Below are positions 6,001-18,641 of a stretch of 64,000 nucleotides of DNA, in pieces; within the stretch, counting starts at the first letter, position 1; each line of letters starts with the position of its first letter. The position numbers were made by a program, and so were the translations under genes. The notes under the pieces are model-generated. The model had not been told where the DNA came from and ran no database searches. It saw only the letters and a list, made by a program, of their open reading frames with translations. The DNA comes from Gammaproteobacteria bacterium (lineage in GTDB: Bacteria; Pseudomonadota; Gammaproteobacteria; Steroidobacterales; GCA-2729495). The stretch is taken from assembly GCA_028285245.1 (NCBI GenBank), contig JANQPY010000016.1, forward strand, positions 124,001-188,000, in the 5' to 3' direction.

Positions 6001-6159
6001 CCCCTCGAGCGTGACGACCACGTTAATGAAGGGAAAAGAAATATCCGGCTCGTTTTCTTTCGGCATGCTCTGATAAGAGGCGATGCCGGCCAGCACGATG
6101 ACCGCATAAGCGATAATTATGGTGCGGCTACGGCTAATGGCGGCTTCTATTGGCGACAT
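3007..6159 (-). CDS. RND efflux permease (inner membrane, AcrB/NolG-like)
   Basis: A 1050-aa resistance-nodulation-division transporter: N-terminal TM1, a large periplasmic loop, TM2-6, a second large loop, and TM8-12. It would pump small hydrophobic compounds or detergents from periplasm or membrane to outside, using the proton gradient, together with the adaptor encoded just upstream (25-base gap). In AcrB the TM4 proton relay is a D-D pair; here the segment is GLLVDGAIVVTE, with the second Asp replaced by Gly. The TM10 Lys position reads GIVVNNNIVLID, so Lys is Asn. Such substitutions occur in non-AcrB RND branches. No outer-membrane channel gene is present nearby, so a TolC-type partner must be encoded elsewhere. 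Transcribed after padR and the adaptor gene. Confidence 0.93.
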   Translation of the reverse strand: MSPIEAAISRSRTIIIAYAVIVLAGIASYQSMPKENEPDISFPFINVVVTLEGVSPEDSERLLVRPLEQELRTLSGLKEMVGSGAEGRATVSLEFEPEVDVDFALQEVRERVDLAQAELPQDAEEPRVNEVKFSRFDPMLVMTLGGPVAERALVAIALDLQDKLEGLSGVLEVNIVGAREEVLEVIVDPLLMESYGLSPADVLGFVERNNRLVAAGALQSDQGRFAIKVPGVIESPADVLSLPIKVDGERVVHFRDIASVRRTFKDAESYARLNGDPSLAIEVVQRGGANMIEAVEEVREIVSASSTVWPPGVVLNYTRDKSVWVKKNINNLTNNVAAAIVLVFIVLIGILGFQNALLVGLAIPGSFCAAFFMLNALGYTINMVVLFASIVAVGLLVDGAIVVTELADRRMAEGMERKRAYAGAAKRMAWPIIASTATTLAAFLPLVFWPGLIGNFMLFFPVTLICVLSASLVMALVFVPALGSVIGRPGHFSEQSRRELLAAETGDLKTITGGTGWYISIVSAAMRTPWRVVGVVTFLLVSLYVAYFTFGKGITMWPEVEPQQGSVDIRALGDLSTNEKDRLVRTVEERVYGIDGVDNIYVRSGAGNLGAAPDQIGSIRLNFSDWRTRRPASEIVADIRKRTADIAGLIIETRLPEEGPADGKPIDIEASAPNLAALGDAVVKIREELATIPGVINAEDTRPVPGIEWRLEVDRAEAAKFGADVSLVGNIIQLVTTGIRLGDYRPDDADEEIDIRVRFPYDKRSLDRLGELRIPTPSGNIPIATFVTREPAPATRNIMRTDGRRTMLVQADLDKGAQISTILSTLKERIPDLDLDPSVTLDFKGGARDQEETIEFLSRAFALAMALMAMILVTQFNSIFQALLILTAVVFSTGGVMLGLLVTGQSFSLVNCGIGGIALAGIVVNNNIVLIDTFNRIKSAGIEAREAIVRTCAQRLRPVLLTTVTTVLGLLPMAMAINIDFINREIFVGGPGTQWWRQMASAIAGGLVFATLLTLLLTPALLMIQANIERKWRERRGLRSESEPVPDAQG

Positions 6160-6184
6160 CGTTAGTCAGTCCCTTGGCACTTTC

Positions 6185-7306
6185 TTAAGGGTTGGACTCT
6201 GCAGCCAGCGCCGTGTCTGCCTCGGCAAACACCGGGTCGACCTCGACGCCTACATCAACGTAGCCCTGCCCGACCGTAATCACTGTGGCGTTCTCGGGCA
6301 GGCCGGTGACCCACACGCCATCGGGCTCTGACCGCGCGATCTCGACGTCGGCGAAGGCAACGCGGTTATAGGCATCGACAATCTTTAGCCCGATTGCGCC
6401 GTTGTCATCCAGCGTAAGCAGTGACGGTGCGACTTTCTGCGCCATCAACCGTCCACCAGGTATCAGCATCTGCGCGGTGACGCCAGCCGGCAGTTTGCCT
6501 TCGGGATTCTTAATCTCAAGTTCAACCGTAAACGTACGTGTTGATTCGTCTGCAACTGGTGCGACATACCGCACACGACCCTCAGCCTGCTGACCGGTGA
6601 CGAGTCTTGCCTGAGCGACGATGTCTTTTGACACATATCCGGCGTCCTGCTCGGCAATACTGCCGGTAACAATAATCCGCGTGTTGTCAACGAAGCTGAC
6701 GACGGTATCGCCGCGGCCAACAAAGTCACCCAGCTCAACCTCACGCTCCTGAATCACGCCGTCAAAAGGCGCGCGAATTTGCATGTACTGCAGATCGAGT
6801 TCGGCACGCGTTAGCTCGGCGCGCGCCGACTCGAGGCGCGCTAATGTTTCGGCCAGCTGGGTATCGGAAACATAGCCGGACGTCTTGAGTTCCAGCTGCG
6901 CTTCATAAGCCGTTTGATGCTCGACGACGCCTGCGCGAGCCTCTTCTAAACGCGCCTGCCGGTCGCGCAGATCCAGGCTCACGATCAGGTCACCGCGTCG
7001 CACCTGCTGGCCGCGGCGTGCGTGCAACTCGGTCACGCGGCCGTCGGTCTCGGCGCGAATTTCTACGCTGCGCGCGGGGGCTGTGCGCCCGTTAATGTTG
7101 ATTAGACGGTCGATTGGGGTGGCCGCAACGCTGCGCACCTGGACGCGCGCCGCGACATCAGCCGAACCCACATCGCTGGCTGCCTGCATCGGCGATGCGG
7201 GCCGGTCGCCAGTCAGGCTGCCTGAAAGTATCCAGGTAACGACCAGCAGAAAAACCAGTACGGCCAGTATCCATGGCCGGTCAGAGATAACTTGGCGAAT
7301 GCTCAT
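6185..7306 (-). CDS. RND periplasmic adaptor (membrane fusion protein)
   Basis: A 373-aa HlyD/AcrA-type adaptor linking the RND permease to an outer-membrane channel. The chosen ATG gives MSIRQVISDRPWILAVLVFLLVV, an N-terminal membrane anchor. A longer in-frame ATG at 7453 would run through most of the padR 3' end in a Cys/Arg-rich stretch with no family likeness, so it is rejected. Barrel-sandwich halves surround a central alpha hairpin (GRVTELHARRGQQVRRGDLIV ... QIRAPFDGVIQEREVELGDFV), followed by a beta-barrel and a membrane-proximal domain. There is no lipobox. It sits between padR and the permease and is expected to be co-transcribed. Confidence 0.92.
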   Translation of the reverse strand: MSIRQVISDRPWILAVLVFLLVVTWILSGSLTGDRPASPMQAASDVGSADVAARVQVRSVAATPIDRLININGRTAPARSVEIRAETDGRVTELHARRGQQVRRGDLIVSLDLRDRQARLEEARAGVVEHQTAYEAQLELKTSGYVSDTQLAETLARLESARAELTRAELDLQYMQIRAPFDGVIQEREVELGDFVGRGDTVVSFVDNTRIIVTGSIAEQDAGYVSKDIVAQARLVTGQQAEGRVRYVAPVADESTRTFTVELEIKNPEGKLPAGVTAQMLIPGGRLMAQKVAPSLLTLDDNGAIGLKIVDAYNRVAFADVEIARSEPDGVWVTGLPENATVITVGQGYVDVGVEVDPVFAEADTALAAESNP

Positions 7307-7334
7307 TGTGCCTGTCGTCTTCTCGCTTGAAAGG

Positions 7335-7880
7335 CTAGGCCGTGGCCTGCCGCTTGATCGATGGCTGCTCAAACAGCAGCGACTCGTGTTGTTCGATATA
7401 GCGTGTGGCTGCTGCTGCCAGCGCTGCGCCAAACCCCGCCACGAAATGTGCACCGCCCGACATCTGCTGCCCCTGGGCCTTTACGATTGCATCAATGTCT
7501 TCGACGGTCTCACGCATCTCGATGACGCGCTGCTCAAGCAGTTCCTGCAGTCTTTCTGGTTCCATCAGGTCGGCGAAGTAAAGGGTGGCGAGAAACTCCG
7601 AACGCAGCCGGTGCCGGGGGCTCGATTGTCGAAGAGCCTGCTCGAACGCGTGCATGCCAGCAGGCGTGATTCGATAGAGCTTTCGGTCTGGGCGGCCCCG
7701 CTGCTCGATACACTCGCATTCGACCAGCTTGGCTGCCGCAAGATCCGCCAGCGCCGGATATATGGAGCCATAGCCCGCCGGAAAGAAGTGCTTGAACAGA
7801 CCCTCGAATTCCTTCTTCAGGTCATAGCCGCTGGCGGGTCGGGCGCTCAGCAGTCCGAGGCACAGGGTCTTTACGTCCAT
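7335..7880 (-). CDS. PadR-family transcriptional regulator
   Basis: A 181-aa PadR regulator. The N-terminal winged helix is seen in CLGLLSARPASGYDLKKEFE and the wing in CIEQRGRPDRKLYRITPAG, followed by a long C-terminal dimerisation helix region (ELLEQRVIEMRETVEDIDAIV). PadR proteins typically repress adjacent phenolic-acid or drug-efflux genes and are released by ligand. It is first in a minus-strand unit with the adaptor and RND permease, 28 bases upstream of the adaptor, so local repressor of this efflux pump is the likely role. The start ATG at 7880 lies inside a tandem repeat that may be its own operator (see 7873-7895). Confidence 0.92.
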   Translation of the reverse strand: MDVKTLCLGLLSARPASGYDLKKEFEGLFKHFFPAGYGSIYPALADLAAAKLVECECIEQRGRPDRKLYRITPAGMHAFEQALRQSSPRHRLRSEFLATLYFADLMEPERLQELLEQRVIEMRETVEDIDAIVKAQGQQMSGGAHFVAGFGAALAAAATRYIEQHESLLFEQPSIKRQATA

Positions 7881-7895: not shown

Positions 7896-8183
7896 TGGCC
7901 GGTACAGGGGAGGGTCAGTGCGACCCCTATATCAAGCTGATGTGGGTTGCGGGGCGCTCACTCTAGCCGGGCGCGGGACCGCTAATCTACAGAACCACCC
8001 AACAGGGCCGGGCCGCCATGGCTGTCTGCCGCAAGAGAATGCCAAAAAGATTATAAAAAACAAAAATATATGGGGGCTCTTTCGCTCTCGACGGGGTGTA
8101 ACTTTTTGTAACCGGGGCATTCTGCCCGGTGGGTGCCAAGCCATCTGCGCGGCTGTCACGCTGCATTAGTAGCGCAAGCACTG

Positions 8184-8231
8184 TGCTGCAGCATGATTGA
8201 CTCGAACACTCTGACGTGTGCTGCTGCAGCA
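8184..8231. promoter_or_regulatory. Pair of TGCTGCAGCA palindromes upstream of the TPR gene
   Basis: The perfect palindrome TGCTGCAGCA is present at 8184-8193 and 8222-8231, 38 bases apart (between three and four helical turns). The second copy sits about where a -35 box would be for the TATAAT at 8253. This is the geometry of a two-site operator, but no regulator can be assigned. Confidence 0.45.
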
Positions 8232-8252
8232 TTTTGCCACTCGGATCGAAGC

Positions 8253-8258
8253 TATAAT
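8253..8258 (+). promoter_or_regulatory. Consensus -10 box for the TPR gene
   Basis: A perfect TATAAT 34 bases before the ATG at 8292. No good -35 lies at 16-18 bases; TTGCCA at 8234-8239 is only 13 bases upstream. The promoter may therefore depend on an activator or be weak. Confidence 0.45.
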
Positions 8259-8291
8259 CGCTGCAACGCGCGTGTTTAAAGGGATGCAAAC

Positions 8292-8798
8292 ATGTTGATG
8301 AGGTTTTCAGCATTGGCGGCGACGGCAGCCTGCTTGGGTCTCGTGAGTGCTCAGCCCGCGTTAGCCGACAACTCGCTCATTGTGGGGACCGATCCGGATC
8401 TTCAGGCCGGTGCGAGCGCCCTCAGGGCCCGCAGTTTCCAGGATGGCGTGCAGCTCACCGAACGTGGTCTTGAGACCACGGTTTCAGTCTCCAATCGCGC
8501 CGCCGGCCTGAGCAATTTGTGCGCCGGGTACACGGGACTCGGAAAATACGAAGAGGCGATCGACGCGTGCAGCGAGTCGCTCCGGATCAAGCCGCGCAAC
8601 TGGCGCAGCTTCAATAACCGGGCGCTGGCGTATCTGTTCAAGGGCGCTTTGATTCAGGCGCGGCGCGACGTGGATGCCGGCCTGGCGATCAACCCCAACG
8701 CCGACACGCTCAACAAGGTCGACCTGATGATTCGGGAAGAGGAAGCGCGGCGGGAAATGCTCGCGGCTGTTTCCGGGCCGGCTGCCGGCAGGCTGTAA
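8292..8798 (+). CDS. Exported tetratricopeptide-repeat protein
   Basis: A 168-aa protein with a clear Sec signal peptide (MLMRFSALAATAACLGLVSA ... cleavage near ALA-DN, residue 25). At least two TPR-like helix pairs follow: LCAGYTGLGKYEEAIDACSES and FNNRALAYLFKGALIQARRD. TPRs mediate protein-protein contacts, here in the periplasm. It has no enzymatic motif and I cannot name it. The next gene on the strand is the HiPIP, 103 bases downstream; co-transcription is possible but not shown. Confidence 0.75.
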   Translation: MLMRFSALAATAACLGLVSAQPALADNSLIVGTDPDLQAGASALRARSFQDGVQLTERGLETTVSVSNRAAGLSNLCAGYTGLGKYEEAIDACSESLRIKPRNWRSFNNRALAYLFKGALIQARRDVDAGLAINPNADTLNKVDLMIREEEARREMLAAVSGPAAGRL

Positions 8799-8901
8799 CT
8801 CCTGTCGCTTGAAGTCTCCTGCTAAGGCTGTAATCTGGCTTTTGTTCAGCTTCAGTTCAGGCACACCACCCTATTCTGACTCCAGCTAGAGGACTATCGC
8901 C

Positions 8902-9234
8902 ATGCGTGACAAAGAAGTAACTCGACGCCAGTTTCTCGGACAGTTGGCCGCCGTGCCGGCCGGTGTAGCAGTGCTGCAGTCCGCGGCAATGGCTGAAGAG
9001 TTGCCGCGTGTCGACGAGGCTGATCCGGCAGCCAAAGCGCTGTTGTATGTCCATGATGTAGCCAACGTGGACACGGCCAATCCCATGGCGGCCCGCTTTG
9101 AGGCAAGCCAAAACTGCGCCAACTGTCTGCAGATTCAGGGTAACGAAGGCGATACGTGGCGCCCCTGCGCCATCTTTCCAGGCAAGTCCGTCAACGTGAA
9201 CGGCTGGTGCAGCGCCTGGATTGCCAAGCCCTAG
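8902..9234 (+). CDS. High-potential iron-sulfur protein (HiPIP), Tat-exported
   Basis: A 110-aa periplasmic electron carrier with one [4Fe-4S] cluster working between the 2+ and 3+ states. The N-terminus has a twin-arginine signal (VTRRQFLGQLAAVPAGVAV). The four HiPIP cysteines are present with family spacing: C72 and C75 (NCANC), C89 (RPCAIFPG) and C103 (GWCSAW), plus the aromatic residues that shield the cluster. HiPIPs pass electrons from quinol-oxidising complexes to reaction centres, oxidases or nitrite/nitric oxide reductases. A partner here could be the PQQ dehydrogenase at 11769, but this is inference from position only. It converges on moeA. Confidence 0.93.
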   Translation: MRDKEVTRRQFLGQLAAVPAGVAVLQSAAMAEELPRVDEADPAAKALLYVHDVANVDTANPMAARFEASQNCANCLQIQGNEGDTWRPCAIFPGKSVNVNGWCSAWIAKP

Positions 9235-9242
9235 ATCTGTCG

Positions 9243-9266
9243 AACCAGATCCACCCAACCAGATCC
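9243..9266. repeat. Short tandem AACCAGATCC repeat
   Basis: AACCAGATCC occurs at 9243-9252 and 9257-9266 in the 80-base gap between the converging HiPIP and moeA genes. There is no T-tract or strong hairpin, so it is not a clear terminator. Function unknown. Confidence 0.4.
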
Positions 9267-9314
9267 GCGCCGTCCCAGGTCGGCCAGGCCTCAGGCAGCT
9301 CTGCCAGCCGCCGG

Positions 9315-10562
9315 TTAGCTGACGAGGTTACCGTCAGGGAACAGCGGGGTTACCCGGACGCGGTCTCCTGCGTCTACTTCAGCGACCTCGTCGTCAATGA
9401 CAATCCAGCAGTTCGCCTCGGTCAGCGGTTTGATGCGAAATGATTCCTGGCCGGGTAACAGAGCTGCTGTCATTTGACCTGACTGGCCTGTTTCCAGCCG
9501 CGCCTTGCCAAAGAACGTGAACTCCGCTCGCTTTCTCATTGGTTCTCGTGCCAGCGCATAGCACGCCTTTTCCGGTGCCAGTCCGGTGAGCTGACGCAGC
9601 AGCGGAACGCCAAAGAAACGCAGGCCCGCGGCAACCGCCACCGGATTGCCGGGCAGGGAGAGGATCGTCGGCCCCTGGGTGACCTTAGCCAGCAAGACTG
9701 GCTTGCCTGGCCGCACCGCAACTTTGTGAAAAATGATGTGCCCGCCGGCAGCTTCCACCGCAGCCGGCACATAGTCATATTCCCCGGCTGATACGCCCCC
9801 TGTCGTGATGATCACGTCGGCGTCCGCACCGAGTTCGCTGAGCTGCCGGGCGATATCCTCGATGCTGTCATTGGCGTAACCCTGACGAGTGAGCGAACCG
9901 CCCGCCAGCGCGCAGGCGCTGGCCAGGTACGGACCGTTGCTGTCGCGGATGAGACCGGATCCGCTTGGCGCGCCCGATGACGTCAGCTCAGCCCCGGTAA
10001 CCAGCACGGCCACCCTGGGTATTGGTCGAACATCGAGTTCATCAACGCCGCCCGCTGCCAGTGCCATGAGATGCTGAGGTTGAAGAACGGTTCCACCAGC
10101 GACAAGTTGTGCATCGCGCCTGAAATCCTCTCCGGTTCTGCGGATGTTTCGATTGGCAACAACAGGCGCGGTCAGCTCGATGGCGCTGACTGCGCCCTTG
10201 TCGTCAGTGAGGGTTTGCACGGCTTCAATTGGCACGATGGTGTCGGCGCCAGCAGGAACTGGCGCACCGGTCATGATTCTCACGGCGGTGCCGGCAGAAC
10301 AAGATTGATTTGTGGCGTCTCCCGCGGCGGACTCGCCGTGCACCGCCAGACGCACTGGCGCGGCGGGTGACCCCTTTTCCGTATCTCTGGCCCGCACGGC
10401 AAAGCCGTCCATAGCCGAGTTGTCGAAGTCCGGCACATTGAGTTCGCTGCACACCGCGCTGACAGTTGTGCAGCCCGCCGCGTCCTTCAGTCTTTTAGTC
10501 CCCGGGGGCAGCGGCTTGATGGCAGCGTTTATTGCTTCGAGCGCCTGCGCGTAGCGAATCAT
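9315..10562 (-). CDS. moeA: Molybdopterin molybdenumtransferase MoeA
   Basis: Inserts molybdate into adenylated molybdopterin in the last step of Mo-cofactor synthesis (cytoplasm). The 415-aa length is typical. Family signatures include NVPDFDNSAMDGFAVRA near residue 45, IMTGAPVPAGADTIVPIE, the MoCF-domain TTGGVSAGEYDYV, and SLPGNPVA. It is transcribed opposite to the transhydroxylase-like operon, with a 172-base gap to the VOC gene. Its presence 3.4 kb from a bis-MGD-type enzyme and a TorD-like chaperone fits a local molybdoenzyme supply function, though moeA is also a housekeeping gene. Confidence 0.95.
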   Translation of the reverse strand: MIRYAQALEAINAAIKPLPPGTKRLKDAAGCTTVSAVCSELNVPDFDNSAMDGFAVRARDTEKGSPAAPVRLAVHGESAAGDATNQSCSAGTAVRIMTGAPVPAGADTIVPIEAVQTLTDDKGAVSAIELTAPVVANRNIRRTGEDFRRDAQLVAGGTVLQPQHLMALAAGGVDELDVRPIPRVAVLVTGAELTSSGAPSGSGLIRDSNGPYLASACALAGGSLTRQGYANDSIEDIARQLSELGADADVIITTGGVSAGEYDYVPAAVEAAGGHIIFHKVAVRPGKPVLLAKVTQGPTILSLPGNPVAVAAGLRFFGVPLLRQLTGLAPEKACYALAREPMRKRAEFTFFGKARLETGQSGQMTAALLPGQESFRIKPLTEANCWIVIDDEVAEVDAGDRVRVTPLFPDGNLVS

Positions 10563-10734
10563 CGGTGTCCTGTTCAGGTTTGCTGGGTTGACGAGTGTAA
10601 GCGACGGCGCTTACCGCCCGCGAGGCACACTCGTTGGCTGCGCCCCTTATAGATTGGCCCGGCCCCTGCGCAACTCTTTGTCTGTAGAATTCGACTCCTT
10701 GCTACCTTCGCAACTGGTTTCCGGGATATCCACA

Positions 10735-11730
10735 ATGAATGACACTGCAAAGTCCACCAGCGCGCCGGTCAGCGTCGTCGTAATAGGCGTTGAAAGTCTC
10801 GCTAAGTCTTTAGATTTTTACGCCGGCACGCTTGGCCTGGAAGTGACTGAATCCCGCGTTTGGCAGGGGAGGGACTTTGAGCAGTACTGGCAGCTTCCGT
10901 CTGGTGCCTCTGCGCAGTGCGCGTTTCTGGCTCATGGCGCCGACCCGGTGGGTCGCATTCAGCTCATGGAGTTTTCGGAGCCTGAGCGGAAACTAGTCCG
11001 GGAGCCCGAGATTCGCCGCGCGACAGGCCTGTTCAATCTGAATATCTACGCCAGTGATATGGCGCGCGACTACGAGCAGCTGAAGTCGCAGGGCTTTAAT
11101 TTCTGGAGTGAACCGGCGCATAACAATTTCGGCCCGGCAGTTGGCGAGACGCTGGAGGCAGCCTTTGATGGCCCGGATGGCGTCGTCATTAACCTGATCC
11201 AGCTGCTGAGCGACGATCCCAAGACCGTCATCGGCCATATCATCGAATTTATTGGTGAGTATGGCCGCACGCCAAAGGGCTACACGTCGGTCGTTACAAC
11301 GGCCCACGGTGTCAGGGATATGGAAAAGGCGGTTGAGTTTTACTACGGCCCGCTGAACATGACGCTGTTTATTGAGTCGGTGCTGGAGGGGCCGGAGACC
11401 AACCGAGCTTTGTGTTTGCCTGAGCATTGCCGCACGCAAAGCGTGATCGTCCAGGGCAGTCATGAGTACGGCAAGATCGCTTTGGCAACGCCTATGAACT
11501 ATGAGGTACCGGACCTGACCCCGGTGGCTGTGCCGCCAAACATTGGCTATCTGGCCCAATCATTTGCAGTGGATGACATCGATATGGCGGCGAAGGCTTG
11601 CGCGGCCCTCGGCGCGGAGGTCTTTGCCGGGCCGATGCAGCTCGCGCTACCGGGTCGCGGCGATTGCCGCTCCATTATTGTGCGCAATCCCGGTAGCGGC
11701 GCCCTTCAGGAGCTGTTTCAACCCTGCTAA
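10735..11730 (+). CDS. Two-domain VOC (glyoxalase/extradiol-dioxygenase fold) protein
   Basis: A 331-aa protein with two tandem VOC modules, roughly residues 10-155 and 180-328. Each begins with a beta strand and the S-L-D-FY or A-VEFY helix (VESLAKSLDFYAGTLGLEV; MEKAVEFYYGPLNM). The ATG at 10735 is chosen over an upstream in-frame start at 10588 because the extra 49 residues are Arg-rich and unlike the family. VOC proteins include extradiol dioxygenases, glyoxalases and epimerases. The first-strand His metal ligand is missing in domain 1 (VVVIGVES) and displaced in domain 2 (TTAHGV); a C-terminal Glu (LQELFQ) remains. Catalysis is therefore uncertain. The PQQ dehydrogenase follows 38 bases later on the same strand. 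Confidence 0.8.
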   Translation: MNDTAKSTSAPVSVVVIGVESLAKSLDFYAGTLGLEVTESRVWQGRDFEQYWQLPSGASAQCAFLAHGADPVGRIQLMEFSEPERKLVREPEIRRATGLFNLNIYASDMARDYEQLKSQGFNFWSEPAHNNFGPAVGETLEAAFDGPDGVVINLIQLLSDDPKTVIGHIIEFIGEYGRTPKGYTSVVTTAHGVRDMEKAVEFYYGPLNMTLFIESVLEGPETNRALCLPEHCRTQSVIVQGSHEYGKIALATPMNYEVPDLTPVAVPPNIGYLAQSFAVDDIDMAAKACAALGAEVFAGPMQLALPGRGDCRSIIVRNPGSGALQELFQPC

Positions 11731-11768: not shown

Positions 11769-13757
11769 GTGATCAGGTTTGTGAGCCACTGCCTTGGGCG
11801 CCTGTCGGTTCTTACGCTTGGACTGCTTGTCCTAGGGGTTAGCCTGGCTAACGACCCTGGCTGGCTGCACTACGGTGGCTCGCCCGGTGGCGCGCAGTAC
11901 TCATCGCTCGCGCAAATCAATCGCGAAAACGTGCACGCGCTCGAGCCTGCCTGGGCTTACCAGACGGGCGATCTTGAGCGGCATCCCCAACACAAACGCC
12001 TGGCCGCACTGAACGTTACACCAATCATCCTGCCACCCGACGCTGGCGCATCCCTGGTGTTCTGCTCAGCGATGAATCGCGTGATCGCTTTGGATCCGGT
12101 AACCGGGCAGGAGCGTTGGGTCTATGATCCAGAGATTATTCTGGGGCCGGTCGGCAATAAGTTTTTATGCCGCGGGGTCGCCTATTGGGAAGATCCCGAC
12201 ATCGCTGCTGGTGCTGTCTGCCAGCATCGGATATTCACGGCGACCAAAGACCTTCGGCTAATAGGTCTCGACGCCCGGACCGGTGAGCCGTGCACGGAGT
12301 TCGGTGAAAGCGGTCAGGTTGACGTGCGGCCAGAAATTTACCGCGGGACACCCGATCTGGCAGAGGGCGATGTCCAGTTTTCCGCACCACCCGTAGCGCT
12401 TGAGGATTTAGTGATCGTTGGTATGGCCGACAACACCAAGTTCTGGCGTGCTGACAGTCCGCCTGGCCTGGTGCGCGCCTATGACGCGCGGACCGGTGAG
12501 CCGCGGTGGCAGTTCGATCCTTTACCGCGAGGCGCTGACCAGGCCGCTGATGCCCGTTCACCAGACGCTTTCCAGACAGTGACCCGAGGCGCGAACGTTT
12601 GGTCCATGATGTCCGTGGATGTCGAGCGTGGTCTGGTGTTTTTACCGACAGCAACCGCCGCGCCCAACAACTACGGCGGTTTGCGGCCCGGAGACAACCG
12701 TTATGCCAATTCGGTGGTTGCGCTCGACGTTGAGGACGGCAGCCTGGTTTGGCACTACCAAATCGTGCATCACGACGTTTGGGATCTGGATCTGCCGGCG
12801 CAGCCAATTCTGGTTGATCTTCAGCGAGACGGTGAAGCTGTTCCGGTTGTCATACAGCTCACCAAGCAGGGGTTGATCTTCGTGCTGCATCGGGAAACGG
12901 GCGAGCCGGTATTTCCGGTAGAGGAGCGCCCCGTGCCGACCGATGGCGTGCCGGGAGAGGTGCTTTCTCCAACCCAGCCTTTTCCCGTCCGGCCGGCGCC
13001 GCTGGGCCGCTTTCGGTTCACGCCCGACGATGCCTGGGGGCTAACGTTCTTTGACCGCAATGCCTGTCGGCGAAAACTTGGGTCCTTCGGTCGCAGCGGC
13101 CTGTATGAGCCGCCGGGTTTTGCGGGCACGCTGGGTGTAGCTTCGGCGAGTAACTGGGGTGGTGGTGCCTACGACCCGAAGCGATCGCTGCTGATTGTGC
13201 CCGTGTCCCAGGCACCGACCTATACTCGGCTTAAGCGCACGAGTGACGTCACAGAAGAAGAGCTCAATCAGCCGCGCATGGGTCCCATCGGTCCACCCAC
13301 ACCAATGGCGGGCACGCCATACTCTTTTCAGTTCGGACCGGTCCTGTCCCCGTTGTTTGCCCCTTGCACGAAGCCGCCGTGGGGAGAGCTTGTTGCGGTC
13401 GATTTGTCGGGCGAAACGTCTACCCGTTGGCGACTAACGCTGGGCACGCTCGAAAAACTCATGCCCGTGCCTTTGCCTCTGCCGTTCGGTACGCCGCTCG
13501 CAGGCGGGGCAATTGTGACAGGCGGTGATCTAGTGTTCATCGGGGCGAGCGCCGATGAGAAGTTCCGCGCATTCGACGTGGAAACCGGGAGCAAGCTCTG
13601 GGAAGTGAGCACGCCAGCCTCCGCAATGGCGACCCCCATGACGTATTCGGCAGGCGGCAGGCAGTACATCGTCGTCGCCGCCGGCGGACACATTGTGGCC
13701 GGGTTCAGAAATATTTCCGACTATCTTCTGGCCTTCGCATTGCCTGATGCCCCCTGA
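11769..13757 (+). CDS. PQQ-dependent dehydrogenase (quinoprotein glucose/quinate dehydrogenase type)
   Basis: A 662-aa eight-bladed propeller quinoprotein that would oxidise a sugar or alcohol in the periplasm and pass electrons to the respiratory chain. The GTG start gives a signal peptide (FVSHCLGRLSVLTLGLLVLG ... ending near LAND). Family features include WLHYGGSPGGAQYSSLAQIN at the mature N-terminus, repeated DARTGEP / DVETGSKLWE blade motifs, IVHHDVWDLDLPAQPIL and the C-terminal GGRQYIVVAAGGH. It lacks the five N-terminal TM helices of E. coli Gcd and has no cytochrome c domain, so it is predicted to be soluble or peripherally bound. PQQ synthesis genes are not in the window. The substrate is unknown; neighbours suggest an aromatic or alicyclic polyol, which is inference. 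Confidence 0.9.
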   Translation: MIRFVSHCLGRLSVLTLGLLVLGVSLANDPGWLHYGGSPGGAQYSSLAQINRENVHALEPAWAYQTGDLERHPQHKRLAALNVTPIILPPDAGASLVFCSAMNRVIALDPVTGQERWVYDPEIILGPVGNKFLCRGVAYWEDPDIAAGAVCQHRIFTATKDLRLIGLDARTGEPCTEFGESGQVDVRPEIYRGTPDLAEGDVQFSAPPVALEDLVIVGMADNTKFWRADSPPGLVRAYDARTGEPRWQFDPLPRGADQAADARSPDAFQTVTRGANVWSMMSVDVERGLVFLPTATAAPNNYGGLRPGDNRYANSVVALDVEDGSLVWHYQIVHHDVWDLDLPAQPILVDLQRDGEAVPVVIQLTKQGLIFVLHRETGEPVFPVEERPVPTDGVPGEVLSPTQPFPVRPAPLGRFRFTPDDAWGLTFFDRNACRRKLGSFGRSGLYEPPGFAGTLGVASASNWGGGAYDPKRSLLIVPVSQAPTYTRLKRTSDVTEEELNQPRMGPIGPPTPMAGTPYSFQFGPVLSPLFAPCTKPPWGELVAVDLSGETSTRWRLTLGTLEKLMPVPLPLPFGTPLAGGAIVTGGDLVFIGASADEKFRAFDVETGSKLWEVSTPASAMATPMTYSAGGRQYIVVAAGGHIVAGFRNISDYLLAFALPDAP

Positions 13758-13916: not shown

Positions 13917-16877
13917 ATGAAGCTAGCGATCATATTTTGGGGTATTCCGCAGGCAATGCGGCTGTGCGCCAGATTGTTTCCCAAATTTGCCGAGCGCCTC
14001 AAAGAGCGGGATGTCATTGCTCAGTTTCAGCTGCGCGACAAGCCCATGGGCCGCTGGATTCAGCTTCAGGACGGCAGGCTCACGACGGGCAGTGGCATTC
14101 ATCATCAGCCTGACTTCACCATTTTCTTCAAGAACGAAAAGATTGCCGCCAGCTTTTTGACCCCACCGTTCGATCATCTCGAACGCATTGACGCTGCAAA
14201 AAATTTCAAGCTCACCATGCAGGGTCCGGACGATCTCATCGTGTGGTTCATGCACCTCCTGGCCAGCATGGAGTCCTACACCTGGACGATTGGCACGGAT
14301 GTGGGGAACGGCATCACCCGCTACACGAATGGCACCAACGGTGGTCCAATTTTCGTGTACGTCAAGAACGGCAAGATTCTGCGCACGACGCCCATGGATC
14401 TGGATGCCAGCGATGCCGATTCCTACACGATCAGGGCGCGTGGCAAGGAATTCAGACCGCCTCGTAAGACCACCCTGGCGGCGCATGGCCAGTGCCAGAA
14501 GTCGATGGTGTATTCGAAGAACAGAATTCTAAAGCCCCTTAAGCGAGTGGACTTTGATCCCGACGGCGAACGCAACATACAAAACCGCGGCAAGTCTGAG
14601 TTTGTCGAGATCAGCTGGGAAGAAGCGCTCGACATTGTCTCCGGCGAGATCAAGCGCTGTAAGCGTGCGGGTCCCGGCGCGATTGCGGTCGCCAACGGTT
14701 CGCACCATCAGTGGGGCAATCTTGGGCACTATCTGTCCGCGTTTAACCGGTTCTGGAACCTGATCGGCGTCACCAAGCTGATGCACTCGCCCGATAGCTG
14801 GGAAGGCTGGTTCTGGGGCGCTCAGCATCACTGGGGCAACAGCATGCGTTTAGGCGCAGCAGAGCCCTATGGAACGGTTGAGGATTGTCTCAAAGAAGCG
14901 GAGCTCATGGTGTTCTGGTCCAGCGATCCCGACGCCACATACGGCTTCGAGGGCACCCATCGCCGCCAGTGGGCCAAGGAGCTTGGCATCAAGATGGTGC
15001 ATATCGACCCGTATCTGAACCACACGGCTGCACATCTTGGCGGCAAATGGATTTCGCCCAAGCCTGGGACAGACACGGCATTTGCACAGGCGCTGACTTA
15101 CGTGTGGATTACCGAGGACACGTACGACAAGCAGTTCGTCGAGCAGCGAACCACTGGTTTCGATGAATGGAAGGCCCATGTGCTGGGTGAAGATGACGGC
15201 GTTCCCAAGACACCGGAGTGGCAGGAACAGGAAACCGGTATCCCGGCGCGTGATTGCCGGGCGCTCGCGCGCGAATGGGCGAGCAGGAAAACTTACCTCG
15301 GCGCCGGCGGGTGGGGTTGCGGCCTGGGCGGCGCCTGCCGCGGACCCACCGGTGCGCAGTGGGCGCGGATGATGACCATCCTGGCCGCCATGCAGGGTAT
15401 CGGCAAGCCGGGGTCCAATCTCGGCAACCTGCAGTTCGGCGCACCCGTGGATATGAACTTCTACTTTCCGGGCTATGCCGAGGGCAGCATGTCCGGCGAT
15501 CTCGCGTACAGCGCCAATTCGACCAACAATTATCAGCGCATGCCCCACATCGTTACGATGAATTCGGTCAAGCAGGTGATCCCGCGCATGTGGCTGCCGG
15601 AGGCCATTATGGGTACGCCGAAGCTCGGCTACGTCACCGCGGTGGACTCCGTCGTCGGTCAGTTCTTTCCGATTGGTTATCCCTCTCCAGGGCATGTTCC
15701 TGTGGAGATGATCTACAAGTACGGCAGTTCATCGCTCGGCACGCAGGTGGATTCCAACCGGTGGATCAACATGTACCAGCATGAGAATCTCAAGTTTGTG
15801 GTCAATCAGTCGGTGTGGATGGAGGGCGAAACGCGGTTTGCGGATGTGATTCTTCCGGCGTGTACGGTTTTCGAGCGCTGGGATCTTGGCGAGTGGTACA
15901 ACGTCGGCCCGGGTTATGTGCACCATATGTACTCGATGAACAATCACCGCGTGATCTCACTCCAGCACAAGTGCATCGAGCCGCTGGGTGAGTCAAAGTC
16001 TGACTACGATATATTTCTGGCCATCGCCGAGCGTTTGGATCTTGGGGCCGTTTACTCTGAGGGCGGCAATTCAGAGCTCGAATGGTGCCGTCGTGCCTAC
16101 GAATCTTCGGACGCTGCCAAGGACATGTCATGGCGGAAGTTTCTCAAGAAGGGCTACTACGTTGTGCCACCTGAGCCCGAAGGCTCGCGCGCGCCGACAG
16201 GGCTGCGCTGGTTCTACGAAGGCCGCAAGAAGGACGTGCCCGAGCCATATCCGCTGCCGTCCGACTTCGTCGAAAAGTATGCCGAGGGTCTGCAGACTCC
16301 ATCTGGCAAATACGAGTTCGTGCCTACCACGCTAAAGCGCTTCGAGGATCCTGAGCGTCCGGCCGTCAACAAGTATCTGCGGACGTTTGAGAATCGGGAG
16401 AACGAACCCGAAATCGCCGCCAAGTATCCGCTGCAGTTGCTGACGCCACATTCGCGCTACCCATTTCACCTGATGGGCGACGACGAGGGATGTTTTCTGC
16501 GGGATATTCGCGAGCACCGCGTGAAGGTGGGTGACCATTACTACCTCACGGCCAGGCTTAGCCGCGAAGACGCGGATGAACGAAACATCCAGGACGATGA
16601 TCTTATCCGGTTGTGGAATGACCGGGGTTCTGTGGTTTGTGCCGCTCAGGTCACCGATCGACTGCGGCCCGGCGTGATCAGCGCACCAACCGCCTCGGCG
16701 GAGTATCGCCCGGCGGGCGAGCCGGGCAAGTCCACCGATCTTGGCGGCTGCGTCAATATTCTGAACCCGAGCAAGCCGATTACGACCAAGAGCCACGGTA
16801 TTCGCCCGAACACGACTCTTATTCAGGTGGAAAAATGGACCGGTGAAGACACCTGGCAGCCTGTGGAGGCGGCGTAA
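13917..16877 (+). CDS. Molybdopterin oxidoreductase, transhydroxylase (AthL-like) large subunit with N-terminal SCP2-like domain
   Basis: A 986-aa DMSO-reductase-family catalytic subunit. From about residue 130 it follows the large subunit of pyrogallol-phloroglucinol transhydroxylase (P. acidigallici AthL): TNGGPIFVYVKNGKILR, SPDSWEGW (S294 matching the Mo-ligand serine), FWSSDPDATYGFEG, FYFPGYAEG (Y520), VISLQHKCIEPLGES and NDRGSVVCAAQVT. Like AthL it has no Fe-S motif in this subunit and no Tat signal, so it is cytoplasmic. Residues 1-130 are extra and look like an SCP2 fold: FQLRDKPMGRWIQLQDGRL, PDFTIFF, then a helix-rich end. AGGAG lies 7 bases before the ATG. The stop overlaps the small-subunit start (TAATG). 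The AthL reaction moves a hydroxyl between aromatic rings without net redox change; whether this enzyme does so is inference. Confidence 0.92.
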   Translation: MKLAIIFWGIPQAMRLCARLFPKFAERLKERDVIAQFQLRDKPMGRWIQLQDGRLTTGSGIHHQPDFTIFFKNEKIAASFLTPPFDHLERIDAAKNFKLTMQGPDDLIVWFMHLLASMESYTWTIGTDVGNGITRYTNGTNGGPIFVYVKNGKILRTTPMDLDASDADSYTIRARGKEFRPPRKTTLAAHGQCQKSMVYSKNRILKPLKRVDFDPDGERNIQNRGKSEFVEISWEEALDIVSGEIKRCKRAGPGAIAVANGSHHQWGNLGHYLSAFNRFWNLIGVTKLMHSPDSWEGWFWGAQHHWGNSMRLGAAEPYGTVEDCLKEAELMVFWSSDPDATYGFEGTHRRQWAKELGIKMVHIDPYLNHTAAHLGGKWISPKPGTDTAFAQALTYVWITEDTYDKQFVEQRTTGFDEWKAHVLGEDDGVPKTPEWQEQETGIPARDCRALAREWASRKTYLGAGGWGCGLGGACRGPTGAQWARMMTILAAMQGIGKPGSNLGNLQFGAPVDMNFYFPGYAEGSMSGDLAYSANSTNNYQRMPHIVTMNSVKQVIPRMWLPEAIMGTPKLGYVTAVDSVVGQFFPIGYPSPGHVPVEMIYKYGSSSLGTQVDSNRWINMYQHENLKFVVNQSVWMEGETRFADVILPACTVFERWDLGEWYNVGPGYVHHMYSMNNHRVISLQHKCIEPLGESKSDYDIFLAIAERLDLGAVYSEGGNSELEWCRRAYESSDAAKDMSWRKFLKKGYYVVPPEPEGSRAPTGLRWFYEGRKKDVPEPYPLPSDFVEKYAEGLQTPSGKYEFVPTTLKRFEDPERPAVNKYLRTFENRENEPEIAAKYPLQLLTPHSRYPFHLMGDDEGCFLRDIREHRVKVGDHYYLTARLSREDADERNIQDDDLIRLWNDRGSVVCAAQVTDRLRPGVISAPTASAEYRPAGEPGKSTDLGGCVNILNPSKPITTKSHGIRPNTTLIQVEKWTGEDTWQPVEAA

Positions 16878-17713
16878 TGACTGACAAATGGAACATGATC
16901 GTCGATGTCGAGCGCTGCAATAACTGCCGGGCGTGCTTTCTGGCGGTAAAGGACGAGCATACGGGTAATGAGTTTCCTGGCTATGCTGCTGAACAGCCGG
17001 CGATGGGCCACAACTGGCTGGACATCGAGCGTAAGGAACGGGGTACGTATCCGATCGTTGACGCGCATTTCATGCCAGTCATGTGCAATCACTGCGATGA
17101 CGCCCCGTGCATTAAGGCCGCGAAGAACGGTGCCGTGCGCAAGCGCGACGATGGTATCGTCATCATCGACCCCATCAAGTCGAAAGGTCAAAAGGAAATC
17201 GTCGATGCCTGCCCCTATGGCGCCGTGTCATGGAATGAGGAGAAGCAGATTCCGCAGGCCTGGATTTTCGATGCTCACTTGCTGGACGAGGGCTGGGAAC
17301 AAACCCGGGCGGAGCAATGTTGCCCGACGGGCGTATTCCGCTCGCTTAAGGTAGATGACGGGGAGATGCAGCGCCTTCAAAAAGCTGAATCGCTGGAGGT
17401 TTTGCAGCCCGAGCTGGGAACTCGCCCACGCGTTTACTACAAGAACCTCCACCTGATGACCCACTGTTTCGTCGGCGGCAGCGTCGTTACAGTAAGGGAC
17501 GGCGTCGAGGAGTGTGCCGAGGGCGCTGCTGTCGTGCTCACGCAGAATGGCAATGAGATAGCACGCGCGACCACCGACACCTTCGGCGAATTCAAGCTGG
17601 ACAAGCTGCCCGCCAACAGCGGCGCCTATCAGATTGAAGTGAATGGCCAGGCATCAGCCAGCTTCGATCTCGCTGAGGAGAGCATCTACCTTGGCGTGCT
17701 GAAGCTGGCGTAG
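16877..17713 (+). CDS. Transhydroxylase-type iron-sulfur small subunit (AthS-like), with one cluster's ligands lost
   Basis: A 278-aa partner of the upstream molybdoenzyme. It follows AthS through its whole length: ferredoxin-like part, ERKERGTYPIVD, EDGIVLID-like DDGIVIIDPIK, ELGTRPRVYYKNL, and a C-terminal Cna-B/transthyretin-like beta domain (residues about 198-278, TTDTFGEFKLDKLP). AthS has 12 Cys ligands for three [4Fe-4S] clusters. Present here are C14/C17/C20, C70/C73/C78, C112 (CPYGAV) and C148/C149. The fourth Cys of motif I is V24, and the CxxC before AHLLD is W129/D132. Two clusters therefore look intact and one looks lost. GGAGG precedes the ATG. The tight junction argues for a stoichiometric complex with the large subunit. 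Confidence 0.92.
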   Translation: MTDKWNMIVDVERCNNCRACFLAVKDEHTGNEFPGYAAEQPAMGHNWLDIERKERGTYPIVDAHFMPVMCNHCDDAPCIKAAKNGAVRKRDDGIVIIDPIKSKGQKEIVDACPYGAVSWNEEKQIPQAWIFDAHLLDEGWEQTRAEQCCPTGVFRSLKVDDGEMQRLQKAESLEVLQPELGTRPRVYYKNLHLMTHCFVGGSVVTVRDGVEECAEGAAVVLTQNGNEIARATTDTFGEFKLDKLPANSGAYQIEVNGQASASFDLAEESIYLGVLKLA

Positions 17714-17789: not shown

Positions 17790-18641
17790 ATGATTTTTTT
17801 GACCGGCGCCACAGGCAAGATCGGCGGGGAGACCGCCCGTCAGCTCATTGAGAAGGGCGCCAGCCTGCGCGCTCTGGTGCGCGATGAGTCTAAGGCGGCT
17901 GACTTGAAGGCCGCCGGGGTCGAGCTGGTGGTCGGCGACATTGCCGATGCCGAGACGCTGCGCACGGGATTATCCGGCGCGCAACGCGCTTTCCTTCTTT
18001 TGCCGAATGGCGAGCATCAGGAGGCGAATGAGAAACAGTTTACTGACCTTTGTCGTGAGTTGGGCGTCAAGCATCTTGTGAAGATGTCTTCAATGGAAGC
18101 CGTCGCCCATGCTGAGACTCCCATTCCGCGGGCTCATTGGGCAGTTGAGGAGTACATTCGCGGATCAGGCCTGGACTGGACCATGGTCAAGCCGAACTTT
18201 TTCATGCAGAACCTGATGGCGAGCGCCGCCCTCATCAAGGAGAAACGCATGTTCTCGCTGCCCATGGGCGACGGCACGACGGGTATGGCCGACGCCCGCG
18301 ACATCGGCGCCGTTTGCGCGGAGGTGCTGACGGCGGATGGGCACGCAGGTCAAAGTTATGAGATCACGGGGCCTGAGGTCATCACATTCCATGAGGCTGC
18401 GCAGCGATTCAGTGAGGTTTTGGGTGAGCCGGTCAAGTATGTACCTATGCCCATGGACAAGTTTCGTGAGCGCATGACCGGCGTGTTGCAGCCATGGCAT
18501 CTGAACGCAGTTTGCGAACTGTTTCGAGAAATCGCTGAGATCGGTATCGACCACACTACTGACACGTTCAAGCGGCTGATCGGACGCGATCCGATCTCGC
18601 TGCGTCAGTTCGTCGGGGATCACCTGGCGTTGTTCAAGTAG
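17790..18641 (+). CDS. NmrA-like NAD(P)-binding oxidoreductase
   Basis: A 283-aa atypical SDR. The Rossmann motif is at the very start (FLTGATGKIGGETARQL, residues 4-20), followed by ALVRDESKAADLKAAGVELVVGDIAD, the NmrA/NAD(P)H-azoreductase pattern. The third segment, MVKPNFFMQNLM, also fits. The canonical YxxxK is not obvious; RAHWAVEEYIRGSGLDW occupies the place, as in the QOR2/NmrA group. GGAGAG lies 5 bases upstream of the ATG. It lies 76 bases after the small-subunit gene and before the TorD-like gene, so it probably belongs to the same operon. It could reduce a product or quinone of the pathway, or sense redox state; the sequence alone does not say. Confidence 0.82.
   Translation: MIFLTGATGKIGGETARQLIEKGASLRALVRDESKAADLKAAGVELVVGDIADAETLRTGLSGAQRAFLLLPNGEHQEANEKQFTDLCRELGVKHLVKMSSMEAVAHAETPIPRAHWAVEEYIRGSGLDWTMVKPNFFMQNLMASAALIKEKRMFSLPMGDGTTGMADARDIGAVCAEVLTADGHAGQSYEITGPEVITFHEAAQRFSEVLGEPVKYVPMPMDKFRERMTGVLQPWHLNAVCELFREIAEIGIDHTTDTFKRLIGRDPISLRQFVGDHLALFK

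Follow-up and report, generated by a model that had tools for sequence, protein, structure and literature searches.

The window, i.e., the whole 64,000-nucleotide stretch analyzed here, contains two overlapping genes for the subunits of a putative molybdoenzyme. The first (13917..16877, + strand) encodes a large subunit of 986 aa, which by homology is of the AthL type with a Mo/W-bisPGD fold. The second, whose start overlaps the end of the first by 1 base, occupies 16877..17713 (+), an ORF of 278 aa with the same limits as in an earlier, sequence-only reading of this DNA. Based on the ORF, the alignment and an AlphaFold model, its product is an AthS-type small subunit with FS1 and FS3 [4Fe-4S] sites and a C-terminal Ig/CnaB-like domain: It matches AthS (PDB 4v4c_B) over its full length (E 5.7e-74), and the predicted model (pLDDT 96.7) aligns with 4v4c_B at Z 33.0 and rmsd 1.1 Å over 268 residues, the C-terminal Ig-like domain included. 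Full-length homology and fold place the protein in AthS; the three [4Fe-4S] ligand sets of AthS (12 Cys) do not, since the FS2 set is missing, and only eight of the 16 ligand positions that define four-cluster B subunits (16 Cys in four motifs) are Cys. An FS4 ligand set, sought in the small-subunit alignment, was absent.

The large subunit retains H144, D174, S175, W176, Y404 and Y560, which we take to be the catalytic residues of AthL (with the Ser as ligand), and in these features it is an AthL. In the substrate pocket, which presumably comprises Y152, R153, W354 and C557 of AthL, it departs from that protein, having H, Y, L and V, respectively. Given the differences at R153, W354 and C557, to which the window adds one at Y152, the enzyme may catalyze a reaction other than that of AthL. 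Pfam detected no Fe4S4 (FS0) domain in the large subunit.

The N-terminus of the large subunit (approximately residues 1–120; 13917..14276, +) forms an SCP2-type domain, a lipid-binding fold, in an AF2 model (pLDDT 85.4) that Foldseek matched to SCP2 entries, including UbiJ-SCP2 (6h6o; E 3.2e-5). The Pfam profile PF02036 did not match the window's own domain and gave weak matches in 10 of 45 members at E values up to 1 (best, 0.0018). Fusion to this domain was found in all 42 branch members (see below) in which it could be judged, the other four of the 46 (L038, L065, L077, L085) terminating at contig ends.

Gene neighbors and host genomes

Downstream of the pair lie an NmrA-like SDR (17790..18641, +), a neighbor conserved in several relatives, and a TorD/NarJ-type molybdoenzyme chaperone (Nitrate_red_del, PF02613; 18681..19343, +). 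Upstream are a two-domain protein of the VOC (glyoxalase/dioxygenase) superfamily (10588..11730, +), which adjoins the large subunit in several relatives, and, on the opposite strand (9315..10562, −), a gene kept as a neighbor in three relatives, whose product, judged by its sequence, is a putative MoeA-like molybdopterin biosynthesis protein. Extradiol-type (VOC) dioxygenases and FAA hydrolases neighbor the gene pair in branch loci. VOC neighbors occur in at least 11 of the 44 distinct branch genomes, a lower bound in that they were found by homology to proteins of the window, L084 and L075; the loci outside the branch, several of which have short flanks, yielded no VOC match.

Heme-copper oxidases were present in 28/28 and 16/16 of the tested genomes that carry the WxxD form described below, one genome being common to both tests, for 43 distinct genomes. 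The first test covered 50 of 60 listed genomes; none of the omitted ten belongs to the WxxD branch. The list did not include L074 and L077. Genomes without this form exceeded the cut-off in 4 of 24 tested (L057, L082, G139, G143), with L101 giving a weak match below it. Dioxygenase and FAA neighbors, along with the oxidases of the hosts, point to aerobic aromatic catabolism as the probable setting.

Ligand positions of the FS2 site

In the window protein, none of the four positions that would hold FS2 is Cys. V24 (codon 16946..16948, +), W129 (17261..17263, +) and D132 (17270..17272, +) align with AthS C23, C126 and C129, the former motif I Cys4 and motif IV Cys1 and Cys2, and A145 (17309..17311, +) aligns with AthS C145, the former motif IV Cys3. 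The sequence-only reading had named the first three of these substitutions, and correctly so, but had overlooked A145 as the third Cys lost from motif IV. The seven Cys that it listed as retained (C14/17/20, C70/73/78 and C112) each align with a Cys of AthS and, together with C149, make up the eight ligands of the two other clusters. Its Cys pair 148/149 needs dividing: C149 (motif IV Cys4, an FS1 ligand; 17321..17323, +) is an invariant ligand position, whereas C148 does not correspond to any ligand.

Homology identifies the missing cluster as FS2, which is medial and of low potential, and in the protein its site appears to be empty of a cluster. Several residues could be imagined as replacement ligands, and each was rejected: C197 is unconserved across the branch; AthS and many three-cluster relatives already have a Cys at the position of C213; C148, as a shifted ligand, is Cys in only 13/30 of the family and 7/46 of the branch; and D132 cannot hold a cluster alone.

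The alignment of 30 full-length family-level homologues, the window protein among them, shows no variation at W129, at D132 or at any of the eight retained Cys (30/30), whereas position 24 is V, T, N, D or A and position 145 is A, E, V or M. This contrast argues that the pattern did not arise by chance, and it is what the alignment of AthS homologues, proposed as a check on the original claim, has returned.

Spread and origin of the WxxD form

Motif IV CxxC is replaced by WxxD in 46 of 91 sampled homologues (44 distinct genomes after the duplicates L064 = G039 and L074 = G071), and W129 and D132 are invariant in all 46, which extend down to about 45% protein identity. The collection scan employed two peptide patterns, one of which includes the motif II Cys of FS3, such that any loss of FS3 would be under-sampled there, and the best 80 of 565 AthS matches were retained. 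F131 and H134 are likewise invariant in 46/46, H134 being present in 35 of 39 three-cluster relatives as well. Cys is retained at position 24 in 7 of the 46 and at position 145 in 22, and some of the seven bearing C24 also keep C145. The FS1 and FS3 ligands are intact throughout the branch except for C17S in three alphaproteobacterial sequences and a single fragment that lacks motif I.

On two large-subunit trees, the WxxD form makes up one side of a branch (SH-aLRT 97 and 95), and on this phylogenetic evidence the swap arose once, inside Pseudomonadota. The first tree omits nine of the 91 homologues for want of a usable large subunit (seven unpaired, two short), and the second comprised 57 rows, with duplicates and most deep rows left out. 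Judged by ligand sets, relatives outside the branch keep three clusters and deeper ones four. At strict cut-offs, a sample of 398 genomes from the phylum gave one match, the window's own genome, and a sample of 369 from the class gave two, so the WxxD form is patchy.

Mapping ligand changes onto the tree supports the ligand exchange that the sequence-only reading had taken as usual for this subunit family: Motif I Cys4 and motif IV Cys1, Cys2 and Cys3, the proposed FS2 set, changed six, one, one and four times, and the partner set, motif I Cys1–3 and motif IV Cys4, changed 0, 1, 0 and 0 times. Across all eight FS1 and FS3 ligand positions, seven show no change and the eighth shows one. Sequence, the clade-wide pattern and the single origin on the tree all favor the claim that one cluster has probably gone and two have been kept. 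CxxC to WxxD is the common step, but the loss was not all-or-none: at the two other FS2 positions, many relatives retain one Cys or both. The large subunit has no fixed change specific to the branch in 851 columns and its catalytic residues are kept; the chemistry therefore shows no visible change at the time FS2 was lost.

A probably dismantled electron relay and its alternatives

To our knowledge, the AthLS structure left open what purpose Fe-S clusters serve in a transhydroxylase whose reaction is redox-neutral. The AthLS-like family is thought to move hydroxyls between phenols, and here is a branch in which FS2 appears to have been replaced by a fixed Trp and Asp. Our preferred explanation, which we consider somewhat probable, is that the two genes specify an enzyme of aerobes that transfers hydroxyls without net redox change and has had its electron relay dismantled. 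The pair would be an AthLS-type hydroxytransferase with Mo (or W), probably cytoplasmic. Its large subunit would move a hydroxyl on a hydrophobic phenolic substrate bound or delivered by the fused SCP2 domain, and the product would go on to aerobic ring cleavage. No electrons have to be supplied or removed, as moving a hydroxyl from one phenol to another is redox-neutral overall. In related B subunits, FS2 lies 6.6 Å from FS1 and 5.4 Å from FS3, with a potential near −400 mV (PMC8840923), and since it sits between the two, its removal cuts the relay. Once motif IV CxxC had given way to WxxD at the base of the Pseudomonadota branch, FS2 would no longer be built, W129 and D132 would form a fixed plug in its place, positions 24 and 145 would be free to drift, and FS1 and FS3 would remain, probably as a link holding the two ferredoxin lobes together. 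The loss suggests that FS2 is unnecessary for the reaction. Of the two roles offered in the sequence-only reading, non-redox or external-electron, the former fits better, because with the medial cluster missing, the passage of an electron through the subunit is hardly conceivable.

FS2 could instead have been dropped for oxygen tolerance. On this view, being medial and of low potential, it would be the cluster most labile to O2 or the one leaking electrons to O2, and its removal would have allowed the enzyme to operate in aerobic cells, whatever reaction it catalyzes. This is possible, even if we doubt it: Heme-copper oxidases occur in 43/43 WxxD genomes against 4/24 of the others tested, and oxygenase genes adjoin the WxxD pair. 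However, with a single origin, the association with aerobic hosts comes down to one event, in which lineage and oxygen are inseparable, and FS1 and FS3, likewise [4Fe-4S], were retained. Moreover, three-cluster relatives reside in oxidase-bearing genomes (L057, L082, G143, and copies in G111, G154 and G175), in the last three beside a WxxD pair in the same genome; a rule that oxygen forces FS2 loss is rejected on this ground.

The complete invariance of both Trp and Asp exceeds what a plug for a useless cluster needs. Such constraint, with a Trp placed exactly at a former ligand in 46/46 and F131 alongside in all of them, could mean that W129 serves as an organic relay, passing an electron or hole from one of the clusters FS1 and FS3 to the other, or as a hole drain from the Mo site, so that the wire was rebuilt and not cut. 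We regard this as unlikely given that FS0 and FS4 are missing as well and that no membrane or cytochrome partner is among the window's annotated neighbors. The invariance of D132 and H134 would also be accounted for if they and other residues nearby bound a modified cluster or a different metal, and in the branch members that bear C24, some with C145, a cluster with D132 as ligand is conceivable. But the site of the window protein has zero Cys, positions 24 and 145 vary freely, and H134, present in most three-cluster relatives, is not a new ligand, making this improbable. That the small subunit is degenerating and has lost its function, as ligand loss and the C17S changes might imply, is barely credible and largely refuted by conservation: There are 97 invariant columns across 30 family members, the frames are open and overlap by the single base, the fold is confidently predicted, and W and D are fixed in proteins differing at about half of their positions.

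A broader version of the dismantled-relay reading, which we offer only tentatively and think rather unlikely as a whole, has a Mo hydroxytransferase passing from anaerobes to aerobic Pseudomonadota and exchanging its middle cluster for Trp/Asp, leaving an electron-isolated, oxygen-compatible enzyme whose SCP2 domain carries a greasy phenol between donor and acceptor half-reactions before extradiol cleavage, with W129 having an active duty (hole drain or relay) and not being mere filler.

The ferredoxin fold of the small subunit is shared with the B subunits of ethylbenzene dehydrogenase and of nitrate, perchlorate and polysulfide reductases, in which the order of Cys motifs is presumably the same. 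In contrast to the window protein, which lacks FS2 and FS4, the ethylbenzene dehydrogenase and NarGHI B subunits have a full relay, FS1–FS4 (PMC8840923). Resorcinol hydroxylase (RhLS) of Azoarcus anaerobius, which can be likened to the window pair by published description only, stands beside transhydroxylase in the Ser-ligated group, but differs in that its substrate donates electrons in anaerobic respiration (PMC10100899). Literature searches, mostly outside subscription journals, turned up no description of a transhydroxylase with SCP2 or in aerobes, or of a lost FS2.

The pyrogallol-phloroglucinol transhydroxylase AthLS of Pelobacter acidigallici (PDB 4v4c) transfers a hydroxyl from tetrahydroxybenzene to pyrogallol. 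It is homologous to the window pair end to end in both subunits and, like it, has the catalytic residues and lacks an FS4 ligand set; it differs in its three clusters against the two predicted for the window pair and in having no SCP2 domain on AthL. On the large-subunit tree, AthL is one of the closest outside relatives of the SCP2-fused clade. The fused molybdoenzyme of marine and soil aerobes is apparently uncharacterized. We also know of no characterization of its SCP2-fused three-cluster relatives (Sporomusa, Desulfofustis, Desulfobulbaceae, Desulfobacteraceae, a deltaproteobacterium, Lachnospiraceae and Eubacterium), which have the same fused domain and the same large-subunit core. From four clusters to three to two, a stepwise dismantling of the relay would have left a readable order of ligand loss. 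The enzymes form two sets, one nested in the other, that share the catalytic subunit and differ in whether FS2 is present, and they seem to amount to a natural test of the role of the relay in turnover. All seven of the SCP2-fused three-cluster relatives keep the four FS2 ligands, and one of their seven genomes has a heme-copper oxidase.

Ligand set of the small subunit

The AthS-type small subunit is encoded on the plus strand at 16877-17713 (278 residues), where the start of its open reading frame shares a single base with the end of the large-subunit frame (13917-16877). Residues 4-277 align to the small subunit (AthS; 4v4c_B) of the pyrogallol-phloroglucinol transhydroxylase of Pelobacter acidigallici with an E-value of 5.7e-74, and an AlphaFold model (pLDDT 96.7), for which 52 window and locus proteins were used, superposes on the same chain over 268 residues (Z 33.0, rmsd 1.1 Å).

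Alignment to AthS shows that Cys is retained at positions 14, 17, 20, 70, 73, 78, 112 and 149, and that four ligand Cys are replaced (C23 to V24, C126 to W129, C129 to D132 and C145 to A145). We take the ligand assignment from NarH-type structures to hold across this B-subunit family, i.e., FS1 is bound by motif I Cys1-3 and motif IV Cys4, FS2 (the medial cluster) by motif I Cys4 and motif IV Cys1-3, and FS3 by motif II Cys1-3 and motif III Cys4, with the remaining Cys belonging to FS4. Under this assignment, the pattern of kept and lost Cys leaves the FS1 and FS3 sets complete and FS2 with zero ligands; the FS4 set is already absent from AthS. The sequence-only reading had claimed that the ligand set of exactly one cluster was lost, and V24, W129, D132 and A145, with both other sets intact, bear this out. 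Judged from the sequences, the loss is real, old and fixed, and in the window protein it is complete.

Conservation and order of change

Within the organism's family, all 30 sequences share W129, D132 and the eight retained Cys; position 24 varies (22 V, 4 T, 2 N, 1 D, 1 A), as does position 145 (24 A, 3 E, 2 V, 1 M), and position 148 is Cys in 13 of the 30. When the comparison is widened to 91 homologues and AthS, 46 sequences have W/D at motif IV Cys1-2 (the WxxD form), 7 have all FS2 ligands and a large subunit fused to an N-terminal SCP2-type domain, 32 (AthS among them) likewise have every FS2 ligand but are unfused or unpaired, 6 have four clusters, and in a single actinobacterial protein D replaces motif I Cys4. 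Within the WxxD branch, not only W129 and D132 but also Q127, F131, A133, H134, L135 and D137 occur in 46/46; Cys is still present at position 24 in 7/46 and at position 145 in 22/46, and K128, invariant in 39/39 three-cluster sequences, is retained in 2/46. Strict new identity at 129 and 132, with release of 24, 145 and the adjacent Lys, is as expected from loss of a cluster whose site was re-used.

The same grouping appears in trees of the large subunit, whose data exclude the scored ligand columns. The WxxD form lies on one side of a branch both in a tree of 82 large subunits (41 rows, SH-aLRT 97) and in a mixture-model tree of 57 chosen rows with AthL, the Pelobacter large subunit, added (39 rows, SH-aLRT 95), these values coming from short searches without bootstrap. 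On the 82-row tree this branch falls inside the SCP2-fused clade (48 rows, SH-aLRT 100); its WxxD rows are all Pseudomonadota, and the fused three-cluster rows are from Bacillota, Thermodesulfobacteriota and one record titled Deltaproteobacteria. AthL groups with two unfused rows adjoining the fused clade on the 57-row tree, where FS2 ligands change once each at motif IV Cys1 and Cys2, six times at motif I Cys4 and four times at motif IV Cys3; FS1 and FS3 ligands change once at motif I Cys2 (Cys to Ser) and at every other position zero times.

Three alphaproteobacterial small subunits (loci L062, L068 and L070) have Ser at the second FS1 ligand, C17, which may mark either further dismantling of the relay or a cluster with a Ser ligand. 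The actinobacterial homologue (L061:5989-6831) keeps its other three FS2 ligands, which makes it a candidate for an Asp-ligated cluster.

Large subunit and gene neighbourhood

The large subunit (13917-16877) aligns to AthL from residue 133 onward (E 3.3e-267). Residues 1 to about 120 form the SCP2-type domain (AlphaFold pLDDT 85.4), for which Foldseek matches SCP2 proteins that include the ubiquinone-synthesis protein UbiJ (6h6o, E 3.2e-5) and alkylsulfatases (2cfu, E 1.4e-5). Sequence-level SCP2 matches are weak (10/45 members, best E 0.0018), and the window's own domain has none. Nearly every branch member retains the catalytic AthL residues H144, D174, S175, W176, Y404 and Y560; of the substrate-pocket residues, R153 is replaced by Tyr or Trp across the whole fused clade, and the W354 and C557 positions are variable. 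None of 851 large-subunit columns holds a residue fixed in the branch (at least 90%) yet absent outside it, and Pfam found no Fe4S4 domain in this subunit.

Near the pair in the window lie genes for a TorD-type chaperone, a MoeA-like protein, a VOC protein and an NmrA-like SDR. A PQQ-dependent dehydrogenase gene (11769-13757; PF01011, E 1.9e-207) separates the VOC gene from that of the large subunit, a placement seen only in the window, with no relatives in the other loci searched. VOC or extradiol-type genes neighbour the pair in the window and in L048, L050, L051, L059, L070, L075, L084, L085, L089 and L092, and FAA-hydrolase genes in L058, L075, L084 and L089; Glyoxalase (9) and then FAA_hydrolase (4) are the top Pfam families among 115 branch neighbour proteins. 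In L075 (SAR116 bacterium), the genes ahead of the large and small subunits encode, in order, an extradiol dioxygenase (resembling biphenyl-diol and HsaC enzymes), a VOC dioxygenase and an FAA hydrolase; after the pair come a cysteine-desulfurase-like gene and a 4-hydroxybenzoate 3-monooxygenase that scores above its cut-off.

Other arrangements occur among the homologues. In one Lachnospiraceae genome (L087:2873-10632) and one Eubacterium genome (L095:2981-12269), the two genes after the fused three-cluster pair are a small unknown one and one for a polyprenyl synthetase; further downstream, L087 has genes for a UbiE/MenG-type methyltransferase and an ETF-QO-like flavoprotein, and L095 has heterodisulfide-reductase-like genes. 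In these genomes the pair may contribute to the synthesis of a prenylated quinone or phenol. In L034 and L039 (genomes G111 and G175), and also L036 (G154), a fused WxxD pair divergently adjoins an unfused three-cluster pair, and these genomes additionally hold a four-cluster homologue. L033 has tandem large subunits (5104-7713 and 8076-10694), alike in the aligned part shown, beside one four-cluster small subunit.

Electron relay and host respiration

In ethylbenzene dehydrogenase, electrons are reported to pass from FS0 to FS4 in order, the distances from FS2 are 6.6 Å to FS1 and 5.4 Å to FS3, and FS2 is reduced only near -400 mV, its potential in DMS dehydrogenase and in selenate and nitrate reductases being -336 to -420 mV (PMC8840923). 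Without FS2, the gap between FS1 and FS3 would, on any of the usual estimates, be too long for tunnelling to be fast; and because FS0 and FS4 are absent too, the small subunit could no longer act as a wire. Most likely, the pair is a putative redox-neutral hydroxyl-transfer enzyme that has come to work in aerobic aromatic catabolism and no longer has a use for a through-wire.

Heme-copper oxidase genes, scored by PF00115, are present in 28/28 tested WxxD genomes, in 1/7 fused three-cluster genomes and, over the cut-off, in 1/15 unfused ones. Within the organism's order they occur in 18/18 genomes, 16 of which have the WxxD form.
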